A stretch of 20,672 bases of DNA from a virus: positions 1-20,672 of the IMG/VR virus record IMGVR_UViG_3300011113_000381; one strand, 5' to 3'. Every line of letters starts with the position of its first letter. Position 1 is the first letter of the stretch. The notes below the pieces were generated by a model. That model did no database searches, was not told the origin of the DNA, and saw only the letters and a program-made list of their open reading frames with translations. Shown piece by piece: positions 1 to 20,672 of this stretch. The position numbers were made by a program, and so were the translations under genes.

Positions 1-3000
1 GTAGGAAAGAATGGAGAAACTGTTGTTGGAGGTGGTTGTCCAACATCATGTCTTACCATCACCGAAATGGGAATAGATAATCTTACTTCTGATGCCAATT
101 TAGATCCTTCAGCATGGTTATTAACAAATGATGGCGATCATGGTGAATATCCTAATAATCAAGTAATCTGGACTGATTATACAAGTCCTCCATATTACGG
201 AGGAAATCATTTGCCTTTCGGAATGAGAACTCTTTATCCGGAAGCATGTGAGGGATGGGGGGGAGGTACTGGTCTTTCTGCTTCTGGTTCTGATCTGGAA
301 AATTATGATGGTGGTTATACTCCGGCATTAGGATACGAAGATTCTCCTCCAGATCCGGTATTACTTGATGGATGTCCGTATTATGATATAAGAGGATGGG
401 CGGGTGCTGTAGGATTACATCCTCACGGTTATTTAAATTTTGATGGATCCGGTCCCACAATAGGTAGACCACCAGGATCTTTCAGACAGTTAAAACGAAT
501 AGAAGCAAGAGGACTATGTGGTTCTCCGGGAATAACCCTAACAACTCAAGTTGAAGGAATGGAAGATGTTGCTATGGTTGCGCCATCAGGACATCCATTA
601 GAAATACCACAAGACTTTTACGATCAGCTGTATCCTGATTATATTGCTAATCCTGAAGCGGTACCAGCAAAGGTTGTTGACATAGAATGTGGTGCGTATC
701 ATAACGTTGTAAGACTACAAGACAATTCTATTGTTTGCTGGGGATTAAATTCTATGGGTCAGTGTAATGTTCCTGATTCTCTTAAACCGGATTGGTCCAG
801 ACCAGTAGGAGTTAGTCCGCATCCTAAACGAGATTTAATTTGCAGTATTCATGCAGGATTTAGTACCACAGCAGTTTTATTTAATGATGGAACAGTTTTG
901 TGTTGGGGAGATCCTGATGTTGCTGATGTAGTTAATACATGGGAACATATACGAGTTTCTCCTATAAAAAGACACAGTGGTAATTATACTACATGTTGTA
1001 ACGGAGCAGAAACTGACGGATTCATAGATCCAAATTATCCAGATTTTCCAGCAAACAGATATCCAAACGGCACATACAATATTAACACAGATTGGTTTGG
1101 CCTTTGGAGAACAGGAAAACCAGCGTATCCTCATTTCGATTTAGGAGTAGAAACTAACAGAGTTTATCCTGTAGGTTGGGAAAATATAAGCAGTTTTAAT
1201 ACTTTAACTCCTGACGAAAAACTTATTCCTGGTTATTATTGTAATGTTTGTAATGATCCTAATCAAGGAGGAGTAACATTAGGTAAAGATTTTGCTGTCG
1301 CAATGTTAAGAACAGGTCAGATTGTCACCACAAGAAAAACAAATGCCAGAAATCCTAGTGCAACTTTGTGTAGAGATTGTAATATTGATCAACACTATTC
1401 TGTATCTAATGGACTGATTAAACAAGTAGATATTGGGCGTATGATTCGTTATGATGGTCTGGGAGTTGGTGGAACTTGTTTAGCACTTGCTTTGTTAAAC
1501 GGTGTGGTATTGGAGCAATGTCCAGATACTACATGCGACGAATATAAGCGTTGGAATTTACCACAACAATATACTGACTGTGGTGTATTAACAAATTTAG
1601 AAGGAATTGGTTGTTTTAGTTCTGACACCGGTTTAGAAGCAGCAATTCATGATGCAAACTGGGCAACCATTAGTGGATTTTATACACCAGCAAAACAAGT
1701 ACGACCCGCTTCTCATCCAAACGGAGCATTTCCATCTTGGAATAATGTGGAAGCATCATATGGATGGTCAACAAAAGTAGCTAATGTAGACAGATCTAGA
1801 TTAGGTAGCAACGGTGCTCTAAGTATACCTCCAGAATGCCGGTATCCTGATGACTATGTTCCTAGTAAATGTGTAATGGATTTAGGCAATAATCCTTGTA
1901 ACAGAATATGCCCCAGTCAAGGAGGTTGGGGCGATTTTCGTAGAAATGGTGATCAGAATGGTGTTCCTGGATTCTTTTCGTATCCTTTACATATGGCAAT
2001 AGCATTAAGTTGTGTTGCAGGAACTAATACTGTTAACTGGTTGCATTCGCCAAGAACTATCTCGCAAACTTTACTTGATGAACCAATAAGTTCTGGTGGT
2101 GGTCAGATTAAAGGATCTAACGTTTTAATTAACGATTGCACAAATTATCACCAGGCAAAAGCAGGATGTGGTGAATGTGATTATGTTGGTGGAAATCCTA
2201 ACTATCATTTTGATGAAGTTGCTAGCACCACTAACTCATGTATTTTTGGATTAAATGAGGACACTGATGGACAAGTTAATCCATTAAGGTTAGATAATTC
2301 TAATTGTGGAGGAACGCCCCAAATAGGAGCACTACAACAATTCATGCTTCCGACAAGGCCATGGGGTCCTTGGCAATTATTAACTTCTAGTGGTGTTGCT
2401 ACTCCTCCGTACATGGAAATGACTTTATGTAATTGGGGAGCATTAAGATTTGAATATTGTCCGTATACAACTATACGTCAAAACCCATATACTACTGCTG
2501 CTCCTTCTTTTAATTTAGGAGGTATAGAGTTTGGAAATAGTGATAATCTTCCTGGTTGGTTTGATTTGCATTATGGTGGAGGGCCAACTTATGTGACCAT
2601 ATCTCAAAACGGAACTAGTCCTATATTAAGAAGATCTATAAGAAGAGATGGTGGCATATGGCCAGTATCTGGTCCCTGGAAAGTTGCATTTTTTAATCCA
2701 AATACTCAAGCTCCTTGTTATTATCCTACAGAATGTAATACCCCCACACCAACACCGGACGAAATTCCTAATGACGCTGGACAATACAGCGGAAGATGTC
2801 CTAAAGCTCCACCAGATCCCACATCACCACAAGAACCATTGGCTTATCTTGATTGTTATGAAGGTGGCGCTGGTCCGTGTGCTGGTGGTCTTTTGGGAGG
2901 AGCATTACCTAATATAGCAAAATATTGCTATCCTGATACATTCCCGAGCAAGAAAACATGCACAGATAACAGTGCAGAAATTGTTTGTGGTGCATCTGGT

Positions 3001-3579
3001 TGCGATCAAGGAATGGGAGACGCGTGCAATCGATGGTTCTTTAATAATCCGTGTATATCGTATGCAACAGGAAAGGCATTCGGGGTTTTCTTAAGAAAAT
3101 CTCCTTGGTACAGAGGAATCTCTGGAAGTTCTGGGGTTACTAATGGAGAATTTATTTGGGATAAAACTTGTTCTACTATATCCAGTCAAACCAGACCTAG
3201 AGATTATAGTATTATGGGATGGGATAGACTTGTTCCAGGACTTTCTGGAATTAAAATATGGCTTACTGGAATATTACACGATCCGTGTCCACCATGGCCA
3301 TTAAAAGATGATGAGGGAGGAGCCACGTATGGGATTTATCCTTCATGGGTTCCTGTTCCAACTGCTTCTCGTTCAGCAAGAAAGGGAGGATGGACAGGAT
3401 CTGTTGGATCTAGAACATGGCAACAAATAGGGTTTACTGGGGCAACAGGTCATGAAACATCAATAAATATTAGTGGTTTTACATATAATAGTGTTGCTGT
3501 TCCTGGATTAAATTTATTTGATCCTGTGACATCTACTACTTTTAAAATAACTGAAGCATTGAGAGAATATATTTCATGA
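1..3579 (+). CDS. Large Cys-rich virion-type protein with RCC1-like blades (5' partial)
   Basis: The reading frame is open from base 1, so the true start lies upstream; the first in-frame ATG is at 67. The visible part is 1192 residues and ends in TGA. It contains about 46 cysteines (near 4 percent), very high for a phage structural protein, often in pairs such as CNVC, CRDC and CGEC. Residues about 221-305 hold two RCC1-like blades: the first has ECGAYHNVVRLQDNSIVCWG, the second HAGFSTTAVLFNDGTVLCWG. Weaker blade-like segments lie near residues 427-447 and 488-507. Around residues 755-782 a D-x-DG...GALQ pattern resembles the end of Pmp-type beta-helix domains, but that is weak. Composition is rich in Gly, Pro, Trp, Tyr and Asn, as in secreted or virion surface proteins. 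Function is not recognised; a tail or baseplate appendage is the likeliest role from composition and from the T4-like structural genes nearby. The next gene overlaps its stop by four bases. Confidence 0.75.
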   Translation, partial: VGKNGETVVGGGCPTSCLTITEMGIDNLTSDANLDPSAWLLTNDGDHGEYPNNQVIWTDYTSPPYYGGNHLPFGMRTLYPEACEGWGGGTGLSASGSDLENYDGGYTPALGYEDSPPDPVLLDGCPYYDIRGWAGAVGLHPHGYLNFDGSGPTIGRPPGSFRQLKRIEARGLCGSPGITLTTQVEGMEDVAMVAPSGHPLEIPQDFYDQLYPDYIANPEAVPAKVVDIECGAYHNVVRLQDNSIVCWGLNSMGQCNVPDSLKPDWSRPVGVSPHPKRDLICSIHAGFSTTAVLFNDGTVLCWGDPDVADVVNTWEHIRVSPIKRHSGNYTTCCNGAETDGFIDPNYPDFPANRYPNGTYNINTDWFGLWRTGKPAYPHFDLGVETNRVYPVGWENISSFNTLTPDEKLIPGYYCNVCNDPNQGGVTLGKDFAVAMLRTGQIVTTRKTNARNPSATLCRDCNIDQHYSVSNGLIKQVDIGRMIRYDGLGVGGTCLALALLNGVVLEQCPDTTCDEYKRWNLPQQYTDCGVLTNLEGIGCFSSDTGLEAAIHDANWATISGFYTPAKQVRPASHPNGAFPSWNNVEASYGWSTKVANVDRSRLGSNGALSIPPECRYPDDYVPSKCVMDLGNNPCNRICPSQGGWGDFRRNGDQNGVPGFFSYPLHMAIALSCVAGTNTVNWLHSPRTISQTLLDEPISSGGGQIKGSNVLINDCTNYHQAKAGCGECDYVGGNPNYHFDEVASTTNSCIFGLNEDTDGQVNPLRLDNSNCGGTPQIGALQQFMLPTRPWGPWQLLTSSGVATPPYMEMTLCNWGALRFEYCPYTTIRQNPYTTAAPSFNLGGIEFGNSDNLPGWFDLHYGGGPTYVTISQNGTSPILRRSIRRDGGIWPVSGPWKVAFFNPNTQAPCYYPTECNTPTPTPDEIPNDAGQYSGRCPKAPPDPTSPQEPLAYLDCYEGGAGPCAGGLLGGALPNIAKYCYPDTFPSKKTCTDNSAEIVCGASGCDQGMGDACNRWFFNNPCISYATGKAFGVFLRKSPWYRGISGSSGVTNGEFIWDKTCSTISSQTRPRDYSIMGWDRLVPGLSGIKIWLTGILHDPCPPWPLKDDEGGATYGIYPSWVPVPTASRSARKGGWTGSVGSRTWQQIGFTGATGHETSINISGFTYNSVAVPGLNLFDPVTSTTFKITEALREYIS

Positions 3580-7861: not shown

Positions 7862-8689
7862 ATGCCTACAGTATTACAATATCCTCCCCAATCTGAACCC
7901 TTTTCACTGGAAGTACCTGTATGGATGAATTTTAGGGCTGCTAATTACAGTACTTTTATTAAAAATAGGGTCTTTGATTATATATGGTCTAATGCCTATC
8001 TGGATATCCGTTTGCCATTTCCTAAAGCAATGGCTACTCAAAATTCTCAAAATTATCAAGTAGGCGGTTCTATGAATATATTAGCAGCAGAATTAGGAGC
8101 TGGAGCTGGATCGGCTCAAAGCGGGGGGATGTTCAGTGCACTTGCTCAAGTAGTGGCTGGAGCAGCAACAGGAATACCGTTTGCGCAAGAAGTTATGGCT
8201 AAATCGGAAGCGGAAGCATCGTTTAAGTCTGGAGGTGGTGTTATACGTTTTGATCATTTAGAAACGGTTTTAATGCCAGGAGCTAGACGGACTCACTCTT
8301 TTGTAATAGATTTAGTAGCAAAAACATCAGCTCAAGCATTTTATATAAACGAAATTGCCATGGCATTTCAGACTAATCTTTTTCCTATAGCAAATACCAA
8401 TTCAATTTATACTATGCGCCATCCTCCATTATGGGCAATGCAAGCTTTTGGACCTAATGAGCCAAGATATTGGGATGGTGCTCCACTAGTTTCTGTGTTA
8501 AAAAGTGTAGATATTAATCGTTCTCCTATTATTGCATCACCATTTACTACTGTAGACTATCGACCTTTAGCAGTAAATATAAAACTAGTATTCGTTGAAC
8601 TAGAACCGGCAATGCAGGTAGGTAATGGTAAACTTTCTATATTTTCTAGATCTGATAATATTGCTAAAAAATTAGGCGGAAGTTTATAA
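7862..8689 (+). CDS. 48: gp48 baseplate tail tube cap
   Basis: A 275-residue protein resembling T4 gp48 (364 residues), which caps the baseplate hub-tube junction and with gp54 starts tube polymerisation. The C-terminal half aligns with T4 gp48: HPPLWAMQAFGPNEPRYWDG (residues about 187-206) against T4 NPTVWMVKNFG...FDG, and the later SPFTTVDYRPLAVNIKLVF...E against STFTLEITMREI. A small-residue, hydrophobic helix-like segment (GGMFSALAQVVAGAATGIPF, within residues about 71-115) corresponds to the similar Ala/Gly/Ile stretch in T4. The shorter length reflects a reduced N-terminal region, as in cyanophage forms. No Shine-Dalgarno is visible; the ATG follows TATAGTAAA. It is the first gene of the plus-strand baseplate operon, and its stop overlaps the gp53 start (TAATG). 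Confidence 0.85.
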   Translation: MPTVLQYPPQSEPFSLEVPVWMNFRAANYSTFIKNRVFDYIWSNAYLDIRLPFPKAMATQNSQNYQVGGSMNILAAELGAGAGSAQSGGMFSALAQVVAGAATGIPFAQEVMAKSEAEASFKSGGGVIRFDHLETVLMPGARRTHSFVIDLVAKTSAQAFYINEIAMAFQTNLFPIANTNSIYTMRHPPLWAMQAFGPNEPRYWDGAPLVSVLKSVDINRSPIIASPFTTVDYRPLAVNIKLVFVELEPAMQVGNGKLSIFSRSDNIAKKLGGSL

Positions 8690-10530
8690 TGATTAATTTA
8701 TTTCCAACTATAGATTATAGTTTAATTAGTGGCCAAACTTTACAGTTTGTTGATATTTTTAAAACTGTTAATATAGAATTTAAAAATAAAAATTTATTAC
8801 AAACTACTACTAAAATAATAGGAGAAAGACCAGATCAATTATCGTATAGATTATATCAATCTTCTAATTATTACTGGTCTCTATTTTTAACAAATAACAT
8901 TAAAAATCCATTTAAAGAATGGGGTCAATCAGAAGAAGCCTTTAATAAAAAAATAGAAAAAGAATATGAAGGATTTGTATATCAGTTTGCAAATAATTCA
9001 AAATATCTTCCTCCAGAAAATTCTTATCCAATACAAAATACTGATATTGATGTTTATACTGGAGTAGATTTTTCTAATATATCTGCTGGTGATCTTATCA
9101 TGGTAGAAACCGGAGAAGGTTCTTATTCTATAAAATGTTTAGGAGCTGGTATTGTTGTTTCTACAGATTTTTGTGGTGATCCGCAACGAGGGCAGAGTAT
9201 AGTTCCAGATGATTTAGATATACAAAAAAATATTAAACAAGTTTCGTGTGGAGGATATTTTAGTTCTTGTTTAGATACTTCTGGAAGAATTTACGCATGG
9301 GGTAAAGACATAGGTTTTAATGATTCGCCTTATGGATTTTTATCAAAATCATCTAAAGGATTATATAAATCTATATCCTCTGGTTTTACTTTTATAAATG
9401 CTTCCGGAGACAGAATTATTGCAATAAAAAATGATGGTGGATTAACTTGTTTTGGAGATTGCTCTAAAGATTTTAGTATACATTATGATGGAGACACAGG
9501 ATTTGTTAAAACTTATTGGACTAAAGGTTTGTGTGGTGGTATAGGTATTAAAAATGACGGAACTGTTAAATATTATGGTATAACCGGTCCTAATGTTCAA
9601 TTACACGATGCAGATTGTGGTTTAAATTATTGTGTTGGAGTTTTAAAATCAAATTTTGGTTTAACCGGATTTGGTGGTATAAGTCCTTTTAATGAATATA
9701 AAACAAACTTTCCTTCTGGTATAACAGGATTTACTGGTGTGGCTGCAGGACTATATCACAATATAGCCATAAACAGTAAAGGAGGATTGTGTGGTTTTGG
9801 TATTAGTGCTGAAGGTAGAACAATTGTCCCTAATAGCACATCAATTTATAAAACAGTTTCTGCTGGCAGATATCATTCTGCGGCATTAGATCAAAACAAT
9901 AAATTAGTTACATGGGGAAGTATTGCCACATATCTTGGTAGTTGTGTGGGAACAGAAACTAAGGCATCGATTACAAATGTTAGTGGAACTTATTCTTTAT
10001 TGGATTCTGGATTTGATCATTTAATATTAAGAAGTTCAGGAACAGTAAAACGATATATTGGTGTAATTAATAGTGTTGACACTTTATTTAAAAAAATAAA
10101 TGTAAAATCTTATCAATACTCTGACATAAATCCTCTATTAACAACACAAGATATTGATCCTAGTGGTTCCGTTGTTTCTATTTGGAGATATAATCAAAGC
10201 TCAGAACAATATGAAGAAATTAAAACTATACAAAATAAACTGCTAACAATACAAAAATATTTAGATGGAGTTTTATATATTAAAATTGCAGGAAATGTTA
10301 TAGATCCGTCTGTTAATAATAATTTTAAAAATATATATTTGCCTAATTATAAAAATGCAGACGATGAAGAGTCTTTTGATACATTAAGAAAACAACTAAC
10401 AAATCAAAATATTTATAACACTAAACAAATAAAATATTTAAGTAATAACGGTGTACAAGTATTAGAAAATACTGTTTCTGGTATTTTGAATGGAACAACC
10501 ACTGAAACTACTGTAACGGATGTAACATGA
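8689..10530 (+). CDS. 53: gp53 baseplate wedge protein with inserted RCC1-like propeller region
   Basis: A 613-residue protein; T4 gp53 is 196 residues. gp53 clamps neighbouring baseplate wedges together around the hub. The N-terminal 110 residues are recognisable: VDIFKTV, then GERPDQLSYRLYQSSNYYWS, LFLTNNIKNPFKEWGQSEEAF, matching T4 GSPRPEELANAIYGNPQLYW, LLMCND..DP..GWITSQEAA. The C-terminal NTKQIKYLSNNGVQVLENTVSGILNG matches T4 LRQIKIIAKSDINSFMNDL (key part: KQIKYLS). Between them, residues about 180-458 form RCC1-like repeats: VSCGGYFSSCLDTSGRIYAWG, ISSGFTFI...AIKNDGGLTCFG, GGIGIKNDGTVKYYG, VAAGLYHNIAINSKGGLCGFG, VSAGRYHSAALDQNNKLVTWG, giving W204-G205 and W409-G410 anchors. The insert sits between GDLIMVETGEGSYSIK and KRYIGVINSVDTLFKKINV, which look like halves of one small beta domain. 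The start overlaps the gp48 stop; GGCGGA lies eight bases upstream. Confidence 0.85.
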   Translation: MINLFPTIDYSLISGQTLQFVDIFKTVNIEFKNKNLLQTTTKIIGERPDQLSYRLYQSSNYYWSLFLTNNIKNPFKEWGQSEEAFNKKIEKEYEGFVYQFANNSKYLPPENSYPIQNTDIDVYTGVDFSNISAGDLIMVETGEGSYSIKCLGAGIVVSTDFCGDPQRGQSIVPDDLDIQKNIKQVSCGGYFSSCLDTSGRIYAWGKDIGFNDSPYGFLSKSSKGLYKSISSGFTFINASGDRIIAIKNDGGLTCFGDCSKDFSIHYDGDTGFVKTYWTKGLCGGIGIKNDGTVKYYGITGPNVQLHDADCGLNYCVGVLKSNFGLTGFGGISPFNEYKTNFPSGITGFTGVAAGLYHNIAINSKGGLCGFGISAEGRTIVPNSTSIYKTVSAGRYHSAALDQNNKLVTWGSIATYLGSCVGTETKASITNVSGTYSLLDSGFDHLILRSSGTVKRYIGVINSVDTLFKKINVKSYQYSDINPLLTTQDIDPSGSVVSIWRYNQSSEQYEEIKTIQNKLLTIQKYLDGVLYIKIAGNVIDPSVNNNFKNIYLPNYKNADDEESFDTLRKQLTNQNIYNTKQIKYLSNNGVQVLENTVSGILNGTTTETTVTDVT

Positions 10531-12845
10531 CCGCGAACAGAAAAGAAGTACAATTTCCTAATATAGAAATAACTTCTGTAAATATATACAAAATTGTAGA
10601 GAAAACATCTACAAAAATTTCGTTATTTGATGTTACAGAGTCAAGACAAAATCCTGATGCTTTTTCGGGCATTTCAATACAAGAAATTATTTTGGATGAA
10701 GACATGTTTGGTGGAGCTGTTACTGGATTTATTACAATAAACGATTCTGTTGGTCTGTTAGAACAATTAAATTTTGGTATTCACGATTCTATAGAATTTA
10801 TATTAACTTCTCCTACAGAAACAAAACAATTAAAATTTGTTATATTAGATTATGAAATAAAAGATAATTTAGCAAAACGAGAAATACACGGTCCTTCTGG
10901 TATCAAAACCACTATAACTTTACGATTTACTAGTGATGCTTTTATGTATAGAGATTTTGATGTACAAACTGCCATGTCTAATTTTATTGGTAAAATATCA
11001 AAAGGATCTAAAGATAACGATAATTTTCAAAATATAGATTATCCCAATCTTGTCGATTTAGAAGAAGAAAAACAAATGAAAGGATTTCTTCAAGAATTGA
11101 TTAGAGAAGTTTCCGGAGAAGAAAAAGATGCAAAAGGTGATGGTCTTTTTGGTGGATCGCCACAATCTGGTAAAAAATTAATAGCAGATGATACTTATAA
11201 TGATATTTGGATAAAACCCAATCCTGTAATGTATCCATTTTCAAAACTTTCTAGTACTGCTAAACCTTTTGAATTATTTAATTATGTTTGTGAATATGCT
11301 TGTTGGAAAGAAGATCCTAATTCTGTTAATTTCTTTTTTTGGGAAGATTTAGATAATTGGAATTTTAGATGCATTTCTTCTTTAGCTACTGAGAAAACTA
11401 AACATTATTATGAAATAAATGAATATGAAAATTTTAATAGAAGCATAGTTAGTATGGAAGTAATAAATGATTCCAGAATAATGGAACTTATAGATAAAGG
11501 ATGTTTCTTCTCGGAGTATATACGAGTAAAGCCTAATTGGAGTAATCCGTATAGACATGTTTCGGATACTGGTAATTCTCTTACTAGAAAAAATATAACT
11601 TTTAATTATAAAGAAGATATAAAAACCACATTAACGGGTTATAAAATAGCTACAGATAGTGTGTTAGATAATATTAAAAATAATAAATTATTAAATTATA
11701 ATAATTTAAGATTAACAGACAACTTATTTGGATTTTATTCTACACCTTATAATTCTAGTTATTATAATTTTAATTGGTGGAACTATTATAATTTTAATAC
11801 CGATGGATTTACTGGAGAAAGAATACAAAGATTAGAATCTATAAACACCCCAGAGGATTTAATACAAAGAAAACCAGAAATATCAGAGATCTCTAGATTA
11901 GAAAATGAATATTGGCAATCACAGTTTGATTTTTGTGAATTGCCAGGAGCATTATTAAGAATAATATACAAAGAAATAAAGTATCCTTTAATTAAAGCTC
12001 GTTACGATTATTCTAAACTAAAAAATTTAAAAAATTCATGGATTGCTTATCGAAAAAATGTATGCTGTGAACGAGCCATTCCTTCCAACTTTTTTGCCAT
12101 ATTAACAGAAGCCGATAAAATACACGGATCAACTGGAGGAGTGCTAGAAAATGATTCGGGAGGGATATATGCATATAAATGGGCAGAAGTAGAATTTTGG
12201 CCAAAAGAACAAATTTTATTGAATAAAAATAACGAATTACAAGTAGAAATTTGGAAAAAAAATAAAAAAATAATAGAATTTGAAGACTCAAATTTTCCTT
12301 TTGTGTTTGTTATGCCTTCATATGCTTTAGTAGGGACTAATAGTGAAAAATATACCGTACCAAAAGGCATAACTACTACAGTTTCTGGTGTTTACAATAC
12401 ACCGGATAATAGAGCTTATAATTTAAACGAAATATTAAATTCTGTGGCTCCCACAAAATTTGAAGACGGACATCAAACTTTATTGATGAATTCTGGCGTT
12501 ACAGATATTTTAGGAACTATTGTAGATAGAAAAACAGTTACAAATTATCCCAGCAAAACAATAATGATGCCTGTTGGTAAATTTAGAATAATAAGCGAAA
12601 CTTGCCCGGATTTTTCTGAACCAGGAAATAAAATATCTTCTGCTCAAGAAAATAATAACAGTGGTGGTTTTTATTTTGGCGGAAGAATTGTTCAAATGAC
12701 AGCTATTCCCAAAGAAATACTTCAATCGTTTGTATCATTTTATCCGGGAACAACAGCAGGAATCACCGGAATGAACGATTATTTGTTTGTGTTTGATACT
12801 ATAAATGCTCACGATGGACTGTGTAATGATGAAAATTGTACATAA
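10527..12845 (+). CDS. Baseplate hub-type protein, N-terminal piece (gp27-like)
   Basis: A 772-residue protein starting four bases inside the gp53 stop (ATGA overlap). Residues about 10-145 look like the first beta-barrel of tail hub proteins: a strand ISIQEIILDEDMFGGAVTGF, FITINDSVGLLEQLNFGIHD, and an FVILDYEI...TLRFTSDAF pattern. Residues about 248-289 (FELFNYVCEYACWKEDPNSV, NFFFWEDLDNWNFRCISSL) match the hub motif in which a wall of the central ring carries an aromatic-acid segment then F-x-x-I/S-SL. The rest is long, Asn/Tyr/Lys-rich and not recognised. The C terminus ends NAHDGLCNDENCT with no typical hub closing barrel; that barrel appears in the next gene. T4 gp27 is 391 residues. Assignment as a gp27 counterpart rests on motif pattern and its place between gp53 and gp25, and is tentative. 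Confidence 0.6.
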   Translation: MTANRKEVQFPNIEITSVNIYKIVEKTSTKISLFDVTESRQNPDAFSGISIQEIILDEDMFGGAVTGFITINDSVGLLEQLNFGIHDSIEFILTSPTETKQLKFVILDYEIKDNLAKREIHGPSGIKTTITLRFTSDAFMYRDFDVQTAMSNFIGKISKGSKDNDNFQNIDYPNLVDLEEEKQMKGFLQELIREVSGEEKDAKGDGLFGGSPQSGKKLIADDTYNDIWIKPNPVMYPFSKLSSTAKPFELFNYVCEYACWKEDPNSVNFFFWEDLDNWNFRCISSLATEKTKHYYEINEYENFNRSIVSMEVINDSRIMELIDKGCFFSEYIRVKPNWSNPYRHVSDTGNSLTRKNITFNYKEDIKTTLTGYKIATDSVLDNIKNNKLLNYNNLRLTDNLFGFYSTPYNSSYYNFNWWNYYNFNTDGFTGERIQRLESINTPEDLIQRKPEISEISRLENEYWQSQFDFCELPGALLRIIYKEIKYPLIKARYDYSKLKNLKNSWIAYRKNVCCERAIPSNFFAILTEADKIHGSTGGVLENDSGGIYAYKWAEVEFWPKEQILLNKNNELQVEIWKKNKKIIEFEDSNFPFVFVMPSYALVGTNSEKYTVPKGITTTVSGVYNTPDNRAYNLNEILNSVAPTKFEDGHQTLLMNSGVTDILGTIVDRKTVTNYPSKTIMMPVGKFRIISETCPDFSEPGNKISSAQENNNSGGFYFGGRIVQMTAIPKEILQSFVSFYPGTTAGITGMNDYLFVFDTINAHDGLCNDENCT

Positions 12846-12868
12846 AAATAAAAAATAAATAAAAATAA

Positions 12869-13798
12869 ATGAAAAATTTTTCTTTAAATATTTCTGGGTT
12901 CGATCAAGAGATACTAACAAAAAGTATCTTTCCCGTAAAAATAACCACTACTTCTTTTGAAAATTCTTACGTGGGTCATTGTTTTAGCCCGTATGGATTA
13001 GTATCTAATTTAAATTGTCCTAAAGAATTTAAATTTTGTAATTGTGCTAATAATACTCATGAATTATTACCTAATGAAAAAGAACCATCAGACGCAGATT
13101 TATCTGAAGCATTAGAAAAAACAAAAGAATGTAAATTAATAATACAAAAATTTGCCAATAAACAAAAATGGAAAAAATTCTTTGGTGTAAATTTTGCAGA
13201 ACCAACGTGTTCTTATAATTGTTCTGAACTTTTAGATTTTAAGTCGTCTTCTAATTCATATTACACAGAAAAAGATAAAATATTAATAGGTTCGACTTCA
13301 GTTTACGATAATGCTGGTTATTTTTCTTATGCTAGGAGAAAAAGTTATACTGGTACTGGAACTGATATTTTAGCTTTTCCAACTTACGATATTAAAACAA
13401 ATTCTCCAATAATTTCAGATGAAAATCATAAAATAAATGGAGAATATTTTAAATATTATTTAGAGTATTCTAAAACAAATGCTACGTTCTGGAATACTCC
13501 TATAAAAACTCCTTTACTACGACAAGCACAAGTTAATTTATTATTTTATCAAAGAATTCAAATTTTAGTTAATGGAGATTTTAGTGTAAAACCTGGAGAT
13601 ATTGTTGAAATAGATTATCCAACACCACAAAATCCTGTAAAAAATAATAAATTTTCTGGTAAATGGATGGTATATAAAATTGTTAGAACTATAAATTCTC
13701 AAAAACACACAATGAAACTGTTTTTAATGAGAGATGGACCTGCCCAATCACCATCATTCTTTAACAATAAATTAGTAAAGGATAAAGGATCAATATAA
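12869..13798 (+). CDS. Baseplate hub-type protein, C-terminal piece (gp27-like closing barrel)
   Basis: A 309-residue protein. Its residues about 216-290 carry the closing barrel pattern of gp27-like hubs: LLRQAQVNLLFYQRIQILVN, GDFSVKPGDIVEIDYP, GKWMVYKIVRTINSQKHTMK, LFLMRDG, comparable to T4 gp27 [20 protein letters not shown] followed by NLTPGVKIIF, FYVDEVIHEL and THLYMFTN. The N-terminal 130 residues hold Cys-rich stretches (CPKEFKFCNC; CSYNCSELL) and may be an added domain. The only leader is a 23-base A/T-only run of AATAAA-like repeats, with no Shine-Dalgarno. It follows the larger hub-type gene and precedes gp25 by one base. Together the two genes would supply the first and last domains that other phages carry in a single hub polypeptide. 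Confidence 0.65.
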   Translation: MKNFSLNISGFDQEILTKSIFPVKITTTSFENSYVGHCFSPYGLVSNLNCPKEFKFCNCANNTHELLPNEKEPSDADLSEALEKTKECKLIIQKFANKQKWKKFFGVNFAEPTCSYNCSELLDFKSSSNSYYTEKDKILIGSTSVYDNAGYFSYARRKSYTGTGTDILAFPTYDIKTNSPIISDENHKINGEYFKYYLEYSKTNATFWNTPIKTPLLRQAQVNLLFYQRIQILVNGDFSVKPGDIVEIDYPTPQNPVKNNKFSGKWMVYKIVRTINSQKHTMKLFLMRDGPAQSPSFFNNKLVKDKGSI

Positions 13799-13799
13799 A

Positions 13800-14183
13800 A
13801 TGGCAAGATATACAGACATAGATTTTTTATTGTCTAAAAATGCAATAAATAACGATGCTAATGTTAAATTGGACATTAATGCTATATCACAATCAATAAA
13901 AAATATAATATTAACGTCTAAAACCGAAAAACCATTTAATCCACAATTTGGTGCAAATGGATACGATATACTCTATGAATCGCCGTCTACTATACAAAAA
14001 GACATAATAAAAAGTAGTATTGCTGCAGAATTGCGCTTACAAGAGCCTAGAGCAGAAATCCGAGAGATAAATATTGAAGATGGAAAAAATGGGAAAATAA
14101 CAATATCTGTTTTATTTTCTCCAATATATGACGAGACTGTAGTAAGAAATTTAAATTTAGAGTTTACGGTGTCTGGAGAATAA
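13800..14183 (+). CDS. 25: gp25 baseplate wedge protein
   Basis: A 127-residue protein matching T4 gp25 (132 residues), the small wedge subunit that sits at the sheath-baseplate interface and helps start sheath assembly. The family signature is clear: an N-terminal DIDFLLSKN...VKLDINAISQSIKNIILT, the KPFNPQFGANGYDILYE block (conserved PF.P.FG..... L.E), and E82-P83-R84 in LRLQEPRAEIREINIE, the EPR motif of gp25-like proteins. The C-terminal strand VVRNLNLEFTV is typical. An AAAGGA about ten bases upstream may act as the ribosome binding site. The gene sits between the hub-type genes and gp6, and gp25 and gp6 contact one another in the T4 wedge. Confidence 0.95.
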   Translation: MARYTDIDFLLSKNAINNDANVKLDINAISQSIKNIILTSKTEKPFNPQFGANGYDILYESPSTIQKDIIKSSIAAELRLQEPRAEIREINIEDGKNGKITISVLFSPIYDETVVRNLNLEFTVSGE

Positions 14184-14184
14184 A

Positions 14185-15921
14185 ATGGCAACCCCTAAAA
14201 TAAATATAGCTTCACTTGATTTTGATTCAATAAAAAATTCTTTAAAAGAATATATTAGTACTAAATCAGAATTTGCTGGTTATGATTTTAATGGTTCTGC
14301 CATGAATGCTTTATTGGATGTTTTTGCTTATAATACATTATTTTATGCTTATTACGCAAATTTGATAGCAAATGAAGCATATTTAGATAGTGCAACAATA
14401 CAAGAAAATATTATTTCTTTATTAAAACCTTTAGGTTATCTTGTTCCTGGTAGAACCTCTGCAAAAATTATAGTTACAGCAGAACCGACAGCATCCACAG
14501 CTACAATAATACCATATATCGATGCATTTGTTGGTCAAGATTCTTCTGGTTCTTTGTATAGATTTTATGCCATAGAAGATATAACTTTAACTGGTTCTTC
14601 TACTTTTAATTTATATGAAGCTAGTAGTGTAGTTAATGAAGTCCAATTAGATGTAAATACCACAACACAAAAAGTATTTTTAGGAAATGAAAATATTGAT
14701 ATTAACACAATTACACTAAAAGTAAATGGAGAAAAATGGTTAAAGGCTAACAACGACGATGAAACTTTAACATCTTCCAGTAAAGTATATTTTATAGATA
14801 GAAGCAATACTGGGTTTTATGTCGTATTCAGTAAAAAAACAGTAAACGATTTTGAAACCTCTTATGGAAAATCTATAATAAGTTCTGATATAGTAACTGT
14901 TTCTTATCTGGTTTCTTCTGGTAGTTCTGCTAATAATATATCTTCAGTAAATAATTCTAAAACATCAATAACATCTACCATTCCCTCTTATGGTGGAACG
15001 GATTCTCCTGATTTAGATTCTATTAAGTTTTTTGCTCCTAAATTGTTTGCTGGAAATAATAGAACTGTTACTCCTGATGATTATTATTCTATTTTATTAT
15101 CTTCAGGTTTATTACCTTCAGGAATAACTTCTCAGGCACAAATTAATATTTGGGGAGGAGATGATGCAGATCCTCCGGCATATGGTAGACTATTCATTTC
15201 ATATGCAGATGATGGTTTGACTGCTGGTTCTAATTATGTAAAAGATACCATAAATCTCGTATCTCCTAAATCTGTATTGACTGTCCTACCAGAATATGTT
15301 CAATCTCAACTAATAACAGCATATATTGGATTGACCGCCGCAGGAGCACAGAGTTCTCAACTTTCAAATATTTCTTCTGACGTGGCCTCTCTTTATAATA
15401 CAGTAAAAGTATTTAATAAAAATATAAGTTTTTCTGATATAAAACAAAAAGTTTATAATAATTATTCTAATATATTAAATTTAAATTTAAATAGTCTGTA
15501 TCTAGGAATAACGCTGAATGGTTCTGATGGTACAAAATCTGTTTCATTTAAAAATGAACTATTTCCAACAATAACAGGAAATAAAGGTTCGGCAGTTTTA
15601 AGTTCTGCTTTTATATACACCAGTCCTACTTCTGGAAATACTGCAAATATTATTTTGGCAGATAAACCAAGAATATATGACACTTCAAATATTTCTATAA
15701 AAGGAGATCTAGTTGCATTAGGAGCAACAACTTCTACGGAATTAACATCTTTTGGTATACTTGGAGGCGTAGATTATACTAAAGGTTATGTTTTAATAGA
15801 TCCTAATGTTGTTCCTTACGGAACTACCATAGAATTGTACGGATATCCAAGATATAAAGATAATGTATCAATCAAAAACGAATATCTACTTAAAGTATCG
15901 GTAACAACAACAACAACATAA
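14185..15921 (+). CDS. 6: gp6 baseplate wedge protein
   Basis: A 578-residue protein of the T4 gp6 family (660 residues), which forms the continuous ring of the inner baseplate (baseplate_J-like family) and drives the shape change on contraction. The N terminus is diagnostic: LKEYISTKSEFAGYDFNGSA, MNALLDVFAYNTLFYAYYAN, LIANEAYLDSATIQENIISL then LKPLGYLVPGRTSAKI, which follow the usual gp6 pattern. A central stretch with FFAPKLFAGNNRTVTPDDYY, INIWGGDDADPPAYGR and FISY matches the baseplate_J core (aspartate-rich GG-D-D loop, then P-x-x-x-G-R). The gene starts one base after gp25, and GGAGA lies five bases before the ATG. It is somewhat shorter than T4 gp6, as in cyanophage forms. Confidence 0.93.
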   Translation: MATPKINIASLDFDSIKNSLKEYISTKSEFAGYDFNGSAMNALLDVFAYNTLFYAYYANLIANEAYLDSATIQENIISLLKPLGYLVPGRTSAKIIVTAEPTASTATIIPYIDAFVGQDSSGSLYRFYAIEDITLTGSSTFNLYEASSVVNEVQLDVNTTTQKVFLGNENIDINTITLKVNGEKWLKANNDDETLTSSSKVYFIDRSNTGFYVVFSKKTVNDFETSYGKSIISSDIVTVSYLVSSGSSANNISSVNNSKTSITSTIPSYGGTDSPDLDSIKFFAPKLFAGNNRTVTPDDYYSILLSSGLLPSGITSQAQINIWGGDDADPPAYGRLFISYADDGLTAGSNYVKDTINLVSPKSVLTVLPEYVQSQLITAYIGLTAAGAQSSQLSNISSDVASLYNTVKVFNKNISFSDIKQKVYNNYSNILNLNLNSLYLGITLNGSDGTKSVSFKNELFPTITGNKGSAVLSSAFIYTSPTSGNTANIILADKPRIYDTSNISIKGDLVALGATTSTELTSFGILGGVDYTKGYVLIDPNVVPYGTTIELYGYPRYKDNVSIKNEYLLKVSVTTTTT

Positions 15922-17754: not shown

Positions 17755-20672
17755 ATGCCTATTAATCCACTAAACGGAACTGACACGTTTAAAACATGGT
17801 TTGATAAAACCAATGAGGTAATTTCTGCTGTAAATGGAATTACTGCACTTGGTATTAGTGGTGGAACAGGAATTAATGTAACTTTTTCTGGTATAACTGC
17901 AGTAATATCTAACACAGGAATTGTGTCCATAACTGCTGGAAGCACAGGTATTGGAGTATCTACAACTGCTGGTGTTTCTACTATAATAAACACAGGAGTC
18001 TGGACCGTAAACGGATCAACAGGAAACGTTATAGTAACAGGACTGAGCGGCGATATAGTTACTTCTTTTAATGGTAGAACTGGTGGTGTTACTGGTATAG
18101 TAGATATATTTGCAGGTTCTGGTTTAATAAAATCTGGATCACAAACATTTCCTATATTAACAAATTCCGGTGTTTTAACTTTTAATGGTTCTACTGGAAA
18201 TGTTTTTGGTGTAAATTCTGTAAACGGACTAACAGGAAGTTTAACTGTAACCGGTTTCACAGGAATTAGTGTGTCTTCTAATGCTAAAGGAATTACAATA
18301 TTTAACACTGGCGTTTGGAGTGTTAACGGTTCTACCGGAAATGTTGTTTTAGATCTTGGTGCTGCTGCGGCTGCAGTGGTGACTTCTTTTAACGGATTAA
18401 CAGGAGCAGTTTCAGGAATTTGTGGTGCTACATCTAATACTTTTACTGCTTTACAGACGTTTGGAGAAGGTGTAATTTCTTCTACTGATATTCGTGTAAA
18501 CGGTATCAGTATGGGTAAAGGTGGTGGAAATGTAGCTACTAATCTTGCTATTGGTATTGATGCATTAGGAGGAAACACTGGATTAGGTTTATTTAATACC
18601 GCAATAGGAAGTTATGTTCTTTCAAGCCAACCACTATCGGGAGACAGCAATGTTGGCGTCGGATATAGTTCTCTTCAAAATACTACTACCGGAACCAGTA
18701 ATACTGCTGTAGGACATGAAGCATTAGTTTTTAATAATTCAGGAAATTCTAATACTGCTATAGGTAGAAATGCTTTACGAAACGGCGCTTTAGGTAATCA
18801 AAATGTTGCTGTTGGTGCTGAAGCTATAATTTCACACCAAACAGGAAACGATAACGTAGGAATAGGAAGAAGAAGTTTTTATCAGTTAATATCATACGAT
18901 AATAATATTGCTGTTGGTTCTGAAGCAGGCCGATACGTTGGAACTGGTACTAGTCCATTAAACGCAGCAACAGGTAGCATTTTTATAGGATATCGAGCCC
19001 GTGGATCTACTAACAGTCAACAAAATGAAATTGTGATAGGCACAAACGCTTTAGGTCTGGGCTCTAACACTGCAGTTCTTGGAGCAACTTTACAACAAGC
19101 AGCCACAATTTACGGTCAATTAAATCTTCCTGCAGGATTGACAGCACGTGGAGCAACTTTTGGAAGTTTAGTTGTCACTGGAATAACAAACAATATTAGT
19201 GGAGTTCGTATAGGAAGAGGAACCACTGGTGGTGCAGCTTCTAATGTTTTTGTAGAACCCGCAACATCAAATAGCCGAGCATACGAGTCTTTAAAAACTG
19301 GCAACATTAATAATATAGTTTTTGGTGCTAGAAATTTACCACGATCTCACTTTGATCATACCGCATCATTAAACTTTACTACTATATTGGGAAGTATTAA
19401 TTTGACAGGATTAACTTCTGATATTTTAGATCCTAATGTGTCTCAGCATTCATATAATACTGCTGTAGGAAATGCTTTAGGTAATCATATTGTGGAAAGC
19501 AATCAAAATGTATTTTTTGGTTATTCTATTTTCGGAGAACCAACAATAGGTTCTCTCCCACAGTATTACAGTAATCATACGGGAAACGTTTACATTGGTA
19601 ATTTTATTGGTAGTATTTCCTATGCACCATACCTTTCTACTGGTAATGTTCTTCTAGGAAATTCTTTATTAACCTCACTTCTTAATACCAACAAATTAGT
19701 TAACAATATAGTAATAGGAAGTAATTCATTACCAGCAGGTTCTAACGTTGAAAACAGTATAGCTATAGGTTCTGAATTAGGACAAAGATCTGTTGGTAAT
19801 GTTTTTAAATCCATACTTATTGGTACTTGTGCTGGTGTTTATTTTGGCTCTGAAGATGGTGAATTCGAAGCAGATTTTAATGATTCTATTTTAATTGGAA
19901 ATAATACCAGATCTGGTCTAAACGTTAATTCACAAAATGAAATAGTAATAGGAACAGATGCTGTAGGATCAGGATCATATACAACAACAATAGGAAGTGA
20001 TGGTCAAGTTTCTGCACATATTTGGGGAGTGTTAAACACGCCAGACGGAATAAGTGCTTCCGGCTTAACTGTTTCTGGAAACATTATTAGTGTTGGAGCT
20101 GTTTCTATAGGAGGTGATGAAGGAAGTAATGTTTTAATAGGTGAAGCTGCACTTGCTAGTATTCAAGGTGGTTCAGAAAATATTGCTATTGGTAGTAGTG
20201 CGCTTGAATTCAACACTCAAGGATCTGAAAATCTGGCTATTGGTTCGTCAGCTTTAAGAAATAATACTGTCGGAAACCAAAATGTTGGAATTGGCGGTTC
20301 TGCCCTGTTTAACGGTATTCAAAGCAATAAAGTTATTGCATTAGGTTCACTCGCAGCATATAACTTGATTGGTGCTACAGGTAGTATTTTTATAGGCAGT
20401 GGTAGTAATCCTTTAAATAATAATAGTGGAACCAATGAAATAGTTATAGGAACGGATGCTGTAGGTCTAGGATCTAATACTGCTGTGTTGGGTGCTACAC
20501 TGCAACAATCTGCTACAATATACGGAAATCTGTTTCTTACAACCGTAGGTATATCCACAAGCGGTGGTGCAACATTCGGTGGAAACATTTCTGCTCCTAA
20601 TGTTGTGTACAGTATTAATAATCAATCAGGTAATTTAACTATTGCTGGTCTTGGTGGAGATCTGGTTACAAC
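17755..20672 (+). CDS. Long repetitive tail fibre protein, YadA-head-like repeats (3' partial)
   Basis: Frame is open from ATG 17755 to the end of the window: at least 972 residues, incomplete at the 3' end. Starting MPINPLNGTDTFKTWFDKTN, it resembles the N terminus of marine phage fibres that dock on the baseplate. Residues about 80-222 contain six spaced copies of a short turn motif of the type V-x-S/T-F/V-N-G-x-T-G-x-V (for example VTSFNGLTGAVSG). From residue 263 onward come many copies of a YadA/Hia head-like unit with consensus N-x-A-I-G-x-x-A-L, in two regular tandem blocks with exact 17-residue spacing and looser copies between. Three copies of a terminal module starting NEIVIGT begin at residues 424, 728 and 894. 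Such units fold as trimeric left-handed beta-rolls, so the protein should be a long trimeric receptor-binding fibre. The last visible residues (YSINNQSGNLTIAGLGGDLV) begin another NG-T/S-G style module, so the repeat pattern continues beyond the window. Confidence 0.9.
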   Translation, partial: MPINPLNGTDTFKTWFDKTNEVISAVNGITALGISGGTGINVTFSGITAVISNTGIVSITAGSTGIGVSTTAGVSTIINTGVWTVNGSTGNVIVTGLSGDIVTSFNGRTGGVTGIVDIFAGSGLIKSGSQTFPILTNSGVLTFNGSTGNVFGVNSVNGLTGSLTVTGFTGISVSSNAKGITIFNTGVWSVNGSTGNVVLDLGAAAAAVVTSFNGLTGAVSGICGATSNTFTALQTFGEGVISSTDIRVNGISMGKGGGNVATNLAIGIDALGGNTGLGLFNTAIGSYVLSSQPLSGDSNVGVGYSSLQNTTTGTSNTAVGHEALVFNNSGNSNTAIGRNALRNGALGNQNVAVGAEAIISHQTGNDNVGIGRRSFYQLISYDNNIAVGSEAGRYVGTGTSPLNAATGSIFIGYRARGSTNSQQNEIVIGTNALGLGSNTAVLGATLQQAATIYGQLNLPAGLTARGATFGSLVVTGITNNISGVRIGRGTTGGAASNVFVEPATSNSRAYESLKTGNINNIVFGARNLPRSHFDHTASLNFTTILGSINLTGLTSDILDPNVSQHSYNTAVGNALGNHIVESNQNVFFGYSIFGEPTIGSLPQYYSNHTGNVYIGNFIGSISYAPYLSTGNVLLGNSLLTSLLNTNKLVNNIVIGSNSLPAGSNVENSIAIGSELGQRSVGNVFKSILIGTCAGVYFGSEDGEFEADFNDSILIGNNTRSGLNVNSQNEIVIGTDAVGSGSYTTTIGSDGQVSAHIWGVLNTPDGISASGLTVSGNIISVGAVSIGGDEGSNVLIGEAALASIQGGSENIAIGSSALEFNTQGSENLAIGSSALRNNTVGNQNVGIGGSALFNGIQSNKVIALGSLAAYNLIGATGSIFIGSGSNPLNNNSGTNEIVIGTDAVGLGSNTAVLGATLQQSATIYGNLFLTTVGISTSGGATFGGNISAPNVVYSINNQSGNLTIAGLGGDLVT
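18649..18954 (+). repeat. Tandem 51-base coding repeat, block 1 (six units)
   Basis: Six consecutive 51-base units begin at 18649, 18700, 18751, 18802, 18853 and 18904. Each encodes 17 residues of the form N-x-A/G-V/I-G followed by 12 variable residues, for example NTAVGHEALVFNNSGNS and NTAIGRNALRNGALGNQ. The spacing is exact while DNA identity is moderate, so the repeat is held at protein level. Confidence 0.9.
19024..19128 (+). repeat. NEIVIGT terminal module, copy 1
   Basis: A 35-codon segment encoding NEIVIGTNALGLGSNTAVLG then ATLQQAATIYGQLNL. Thirty of the 35 residues are identical to the copy at 20434-20538, and a diverged copy starts at 19936. Each copy follows a block of N-x-A-I-G repeats and marks the end of one fibre segment. 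Confidence 0.88.
19936..20037 (+). repeat. NEIVIGT terminal module, copy 2 (diverged)
   Basis: Encodes NEIVIGTDAVGSGSYTTTIG then SDGQVSAHIWGVLN. The first eleven residues match copy 3 exactly; afterwards it diverges while keeping an I-x-G-x-L ending, so this junction has been remodelled relative to the other two copies. Confidence 0.7.
20128..20382 (+). repeat. Tandem 51-base coding repeat, block 2 (five units)
   Basis: Units begin at 20128, 20179, 20230, 20281 and 20332 with exact 51-base spacing and encode NVLIGEAALASIQGGSE, NIAIGSSALEFNTQGSE, NLAIGSSALRNNTVGNQ, NVGIGGSALFNGIQSNK and a degenerate fifth unit with VIALG in place of N-x-A-I-G. Same family as the block at 18649. Confidence 0.88.
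20434..20538 (+). repeat. NEIVIGT terminal module, copy 3
   Basis: Encodes NEIVIGTDAVGLGSNTAVLG then ATLQQSATIYGNLFL. It differs from the copy at 19024 by five residues but by many synonymous third-base changes, which points to old duplication with selection on the protein. Confidence 0.88.

Follow-up and report, generated by a model that had tools for sequence, protein, structure and literature searches.

An RCC1-type propeller within a gp53-type baseplate wedge protein of an uncultured T4-like phage

Gene neighbourhood and N-terminal gp53 region

The analysed stretch of DNA, here called the window, is the entire 20,672-base IMG/VR record IMGVR_UViG_3300011113_000381, a metagenomic contig whose source is an uncultured T4-like phage. 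Its gene order runs from a single-stranded DNA-binding protein resembling cyanophage gp32 through a gp48-like tube cap and gp53 to two phrog_350 ORFs, gp25, gp6 and later tail genes. The gp53-type baseplate wedge gene (8689..10530, plus strand) is an uninterrupted ORF of 613 aa identified by Pfam and phrog profiles, and its ATG overlaps the stop codon (TAATG) of the upstream gene, which encodes the gp48-like baseplate tail tube cap (7862..8689, plus strand; phrog_230, 4.9e-6). Two ORFs of 772 and 309 aa follow (10527..13798, plus strand), which by profile match jointly correspond to a single phrog_350 tail protein, and then the wedge genes gp25 and gp6 (13800..15921, plus strand; PF04965, PF21379, phrog_261, phrog_219). 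The gene thus has the neighbours of a gp53 wedge gene, with gp48 adjoining and gp25 and gp6 nearby; the T4 gp53 gene likewise adjoins the tube cap gene gp48 and lies near gp25 and gp6. The phrog_350 protein is encoded by a single 483-aa ORF in Pelagibacter phage Mosig and by two ORFs in the window and in one of its relatives (L098). At 17755-20670, a 972-aa ORF with an open end carries tail-spike-like repeats (phrog_4636, 2.5e-26). Searches of the window for tRNAs and Rfam families gave no match.

Residues 1-96 of the 613-aa protein (8689..8976, plus strand) form a gp53 N-terminal region with a LysM-like core. PF11246 matched residues 14-93 at 1.8e-8 (34.8 bits against a curated cut-off of 21), phrog_232 matched residues 3-95 at 3.9e-17, our own gp53 HMM matched the protein at 8e-20, and PDB entries 5HX2 and 9F4A were found by profile. 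The family profile matched T4 gp53 (5HX2/5IV5) at 1.3e-6. Judged by these profiles, residues 2-94 are the LysM region of a gp53. T4 gp53 (PF11246, phrog_232; PDB 5IV5, 5HX2) shares this LysM-type region, but it has 196 residues and no propeller, and the C-terminal part of the 613-aa protein is barely recognisable by sequence.

A predicted seven-bladed RCC1-type propeller

The original prediction saw RCC1-type blades at residues of about 180-458, and profiles, structure prediction and fold comparison all bore this out. An RCC1-type seven-bladed propeller was assigned to residues 181-458 (9229..10062, plus strand; PF13540, PF25390, PF00415), with blade cores at 9232-9303, 9385-9456, 9502-9576, 9601-9675, 9730-9801, 9847-9918 and 9988-10059 on the same strand. 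Pfam matches included RCC1_2 (4.5e-16) and WD40_RLD (2.7e-16, residues 173-432), and both RCC1 repeat profiles scored above their cut-offs (PF13540, 58.6 bits vs 22; PF00415, 23.9 vs 21.7). A crude repeat count gave 27 against a maximum of 11 in 60 shuffles, and the single best repeat pair scored barely above shuffles (41 vs 39).

In an AlphaFold2 (AF2) model of the whole protein, built from a 12-row alignment, residues 182-464 are predicted to form seven blades of about three strands each, with pLDDT values mostly between 75 and 92. Outside the propeller pLDDT was mostly below 50, so the model leaves the orientation of the propeller relative to the core unfixed. Foldseek placed BLIP-II first (1.5e-17), followed by RCC1 and UVR8; the match to 1JTD had a TM-score of 0.78 of the target. 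From the AF2 strands and the Foldseek matches, the propeller is predicted to have seven blades, which would form a closed ring. The RCC1 family and BLIP-II, which gave the top Foldseek and sequence matches, share the repeat signature and the seven blades, but here the propeller is nested in a phage structural protein, and neither a Ran nor a beta-lactamase role is implied. There is no reason to expect Ran nucleotide exchange in a phage. With BLIP-II as the nearest solved fold, the propeller might be imagined as an inhibitor or effector acting in or on the host, for instance by a BLIP-II-like block of beta-lactamase, with gp53 as a mere carrier. However, such a fold match would be expected of RCC1-type propellers in general, and gp53, as a core wedge protein, is not known to be injected, which makes this explanation very improbable.

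C-terminal end and insertion point

Both ends of the protein had been proposed to match T4 gp53. This held for the N-terminal 94 or so residues, whereas residues 454-613 alone gave no significant match to gp53 profiles and a standalone C-terminal match was rejected. When the propeller was removed in the alignment, the family aligned over nearly its full length to gp53s bearing the small beta-domain. The score of this chained alignment was 141.9, compared with a mean of 133.8 (SD 0.9) and a maximum of 138.2 in 100 column shuffles of the later part; the later part by itself remained within the shuffle range (16.0 vs a maximum of 16.5). Because the chained score exceeded all 100 shuffles, the C-terminal end is likely, if weakly, homologous to the gp53 C-terminus on sequence grounds. 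Its probable counterpart there is a helical segment at residues 560-600 (10366..10488, plus strand), a weak assignment made from its position in the chained alignment and modelled with low pLDDT.

The propeller follows the LysM-containing core and precedes the C-terminal segment, and it probably interrupts a small beta-domain there. The putative first half, residues 127-152 (GDLIMVETGEGSYSIK; 9067..9144, plus strand), is conserved in relatives and was placed by chained hhalign against gp53s in which the beta-domain is uninterrupted. The last propeller strand leads into the putative second half at residues 454-480 (KRYIGVINSVDTLFKKI; 10048..10128, plus strand). That the insert splits this domain, as originally proposed (GDLIMVETG...KRYIGVINSVDTLFKKI), is suggested by one line of evidence, the chained alignment with gp53s whose 'GETITGLTSGATGTLTKK' domain is intact; in the AF2 model, strand 454-464 doubles as a strand of the last propeller blade.

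Relatives carrying the RCC1-containing gp53

A search with gp6 recovered four syntenic contigs (L098, L100, L101 and L102), which share the gene order and encode a full-length RCC1-containing gp53 at 38-63% identity, flanked by homologues of gp4, gp54, gp48, gp25 and gp6. L106, found by sequence, provided a fifth match to the whole protein, at 40% identity; lengths across the five records range from 612 to 634 aa. L098 and L100 are near-identical, so the five records amount to about four independent lines of evidence. The metagenomic origin of the window would permit a chimera produced by assembly or a gene-call error, but the recurrence of the whole protein in four syntenic contigs and the fifth match argues against an assembly chimera and leaves this explanation a negligible probability. 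Among the relatives found, no gp53 without the insert was seen. The RCC1 region alone retrieved no relatives from viral contigs, and the whole-protein profile had no match in genome contigs and therefore yields no clue to the host.

In a sixth relative, G001 (L107:4150-11166 and L147), the gp53 halves are carried by adjacent ORFs of 1350 and 1395 aa: query residues 1-334 align to the former and 334-610 to the latter. The break falls within the propeller, after blade 4, and both ORFs carry further RCC1 repeats; it may be a true gene split or an assembly frameshift. The original prediction had treated halves in unrelated genes of relatives as evidence against an insertion. Separate genes were seen in G001, where they adjoin, occupy the same slot and break inside the propeller, so the insertion idea is modified rather than refuted. 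RCC1 repeats were present in all records with the gene (6/6), confined to gp53 except in G001, where they occur in gp53 and the next ORF. Another RCC1-containing ORF of the window (1-3579; 1192 aa, 5' end open) lies upstream of the gp32-like gene and found no match in the phage collection searched.

Across the lineage dN was well below dS, and in every pair the propeller's identity was comparable to the range seen in the flanks. The pair L101/L106 is the most reliable for rates, since dS is near saturation in wider pairs: dN and dS were 0.074 and 0.68 for the propeller and 0.079 and 0.59 for the N-terminus. Selection on the propeller is purifying, and its rate of evolution does not exceed that of the flanks, which makes it ill-suited to being a hypervariable adhesin, a candidate for which the rate comparison gave no support. 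Such a slow rate would fit binding to a conserved host molecule as well.

Inserts in other gp53 proteins

In a sample of 118 complete gp53 ORFs from fetched loci, chosen by similarity and including the present lineage, the segment after LysM ranged from fewer than 100 to more than 1250 residues. In one class, about 793 aa long, a YVTN-type propeller was recognised by profile match to the surface-layer protein 1L0Q (1.7e-9); the AF2 model of this class had a mean pLDDT of only 33, and the assignment thus rests on that match. The YVTN-type class is also found in the cultured Synechococcus phage S-SCSM2R. Like the window protein, the gp53s of S-SCSM2R (780 aa), S-H9-2 (675 aa) and the marine 793-aa class have a large beta-rich insert, located after LysM and before the C-terminal motif. 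In S-SCSM2R and the 793-aa class it consists of a YVTN-type propeller and Gly-rich beta repeats; in S-H9-2 only the repeats aligned. These gp53s lack RCC1 repeats and, unlike the window gp53, retain an intact C-terminal motif. A 485-aa gp53 (L141:2206-3660) has a dockerin-like repeat, with residues 294-322 matching dockerin type I (2.6e-5), and in others small beta-domains fill the segment. Inserts in this segment thus differ between phage groups; the RCC1 propeller is conserved within its lineage.

The unrelated inserts in one segment give gp53 the look of a socket into which add-on domains can be fitted again and again. Such a socket might be general to aquatic T4-like phages, with RCC1 and YVTN propellers having entered independently and a two-chain gp53 in G001 whose blades would have to associate to restore a single gp53; we regard this extension as possible, if on the doubtful side. 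The size variation and differing inserts, together with the expanded repeats and split gene of G001, could suggest a tolerated passenger in a permissive loop, functionless itself and kept since its loss would unfold the protein. Against this stand purifying selection on the propeller equal to that on the core, a modelled fold complete in 7/7 blades and the lack of any insert-free member seen in the lineage, and we consider a passenger quite unlikely.

Proposed role of the propeller

Profile searches, AF2 modelling, synteny among relatives and the diversity of inserts elsewhere together uphold the earlier proposal of a propeller inserted in gp53 at a permissive place, which is therefore probably exposed. 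In T4, it is the binding of gp53 that causes the six wedges to associate (PMC3004832). The gp53 core of the present phage would assemble into the wedge as usual, and a domain entering after LysM would have to leave the core towards the outside, so that each gp53 copy (six in T4) would hold one propeller outside the dome. In that position the propeller could serve as a rigid module for protein-protein contacts, docking or bracing a peripheral component such as a fibre base, a sheath-proximal element or a neighbouring wedge. A precedent is wedge protein gp31 of phage A-1(L), whose insertion domain (residues 81-180) reaches out and holds the long tail fibre (PMC10966104); there, too, a wedge protein bears an extra domain, but it is a different wedge protein.

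Among the roles first suggested, decorating the baseplate or binding a fibre is preferred in view of this precedent, and binding of a host-surface molecule is disfavoured. An adhesin on the baseplate rim would agree with propellers being common ligand-binding folds and with inserts that differ between phage groups, as expected if they track host surfaces; since propeller evolution is not accelerated within the lineage and a separate tail-spike-like gene lies downstream (17755-20670), we hold it to be unlikely. Given the slow evolution and the fibre-holding domain of A-1(L), our best reading is an exposed accessory module, more probably for protein docking or bracing than for direct receptor binding. 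To the full reading, a wedge gp53 whose inserted propeller lies outside the dome and docks or braces a peripheral component instead of reading a fast-changing host receptor, we assign a probability of roughly 0.45.

A conserved propeller of about 280 residues and differing inserts elsewhere mark a baseplate site where functions can be added with assembly unbroken. Such a site would help to explain the large gp53s of aquatic phages, and it offers a testable place to study what add-on domains do. Searches of the available literature on phage, RCC1 and baseplate and on cyanophage, beta-propeller and baseplate, plus looser searches, found no report of an RCC1-gp53 fusion. Other tailed phages also possess propeller proteins, although a fusion to gp53 is not reported in the sections available to us: jumbo phage phAPEC6 has RCC1-like proteins and phage CBB has Kelch propellers, with one Kelch protein located in the virion (PMC7247149, PMC5259590).
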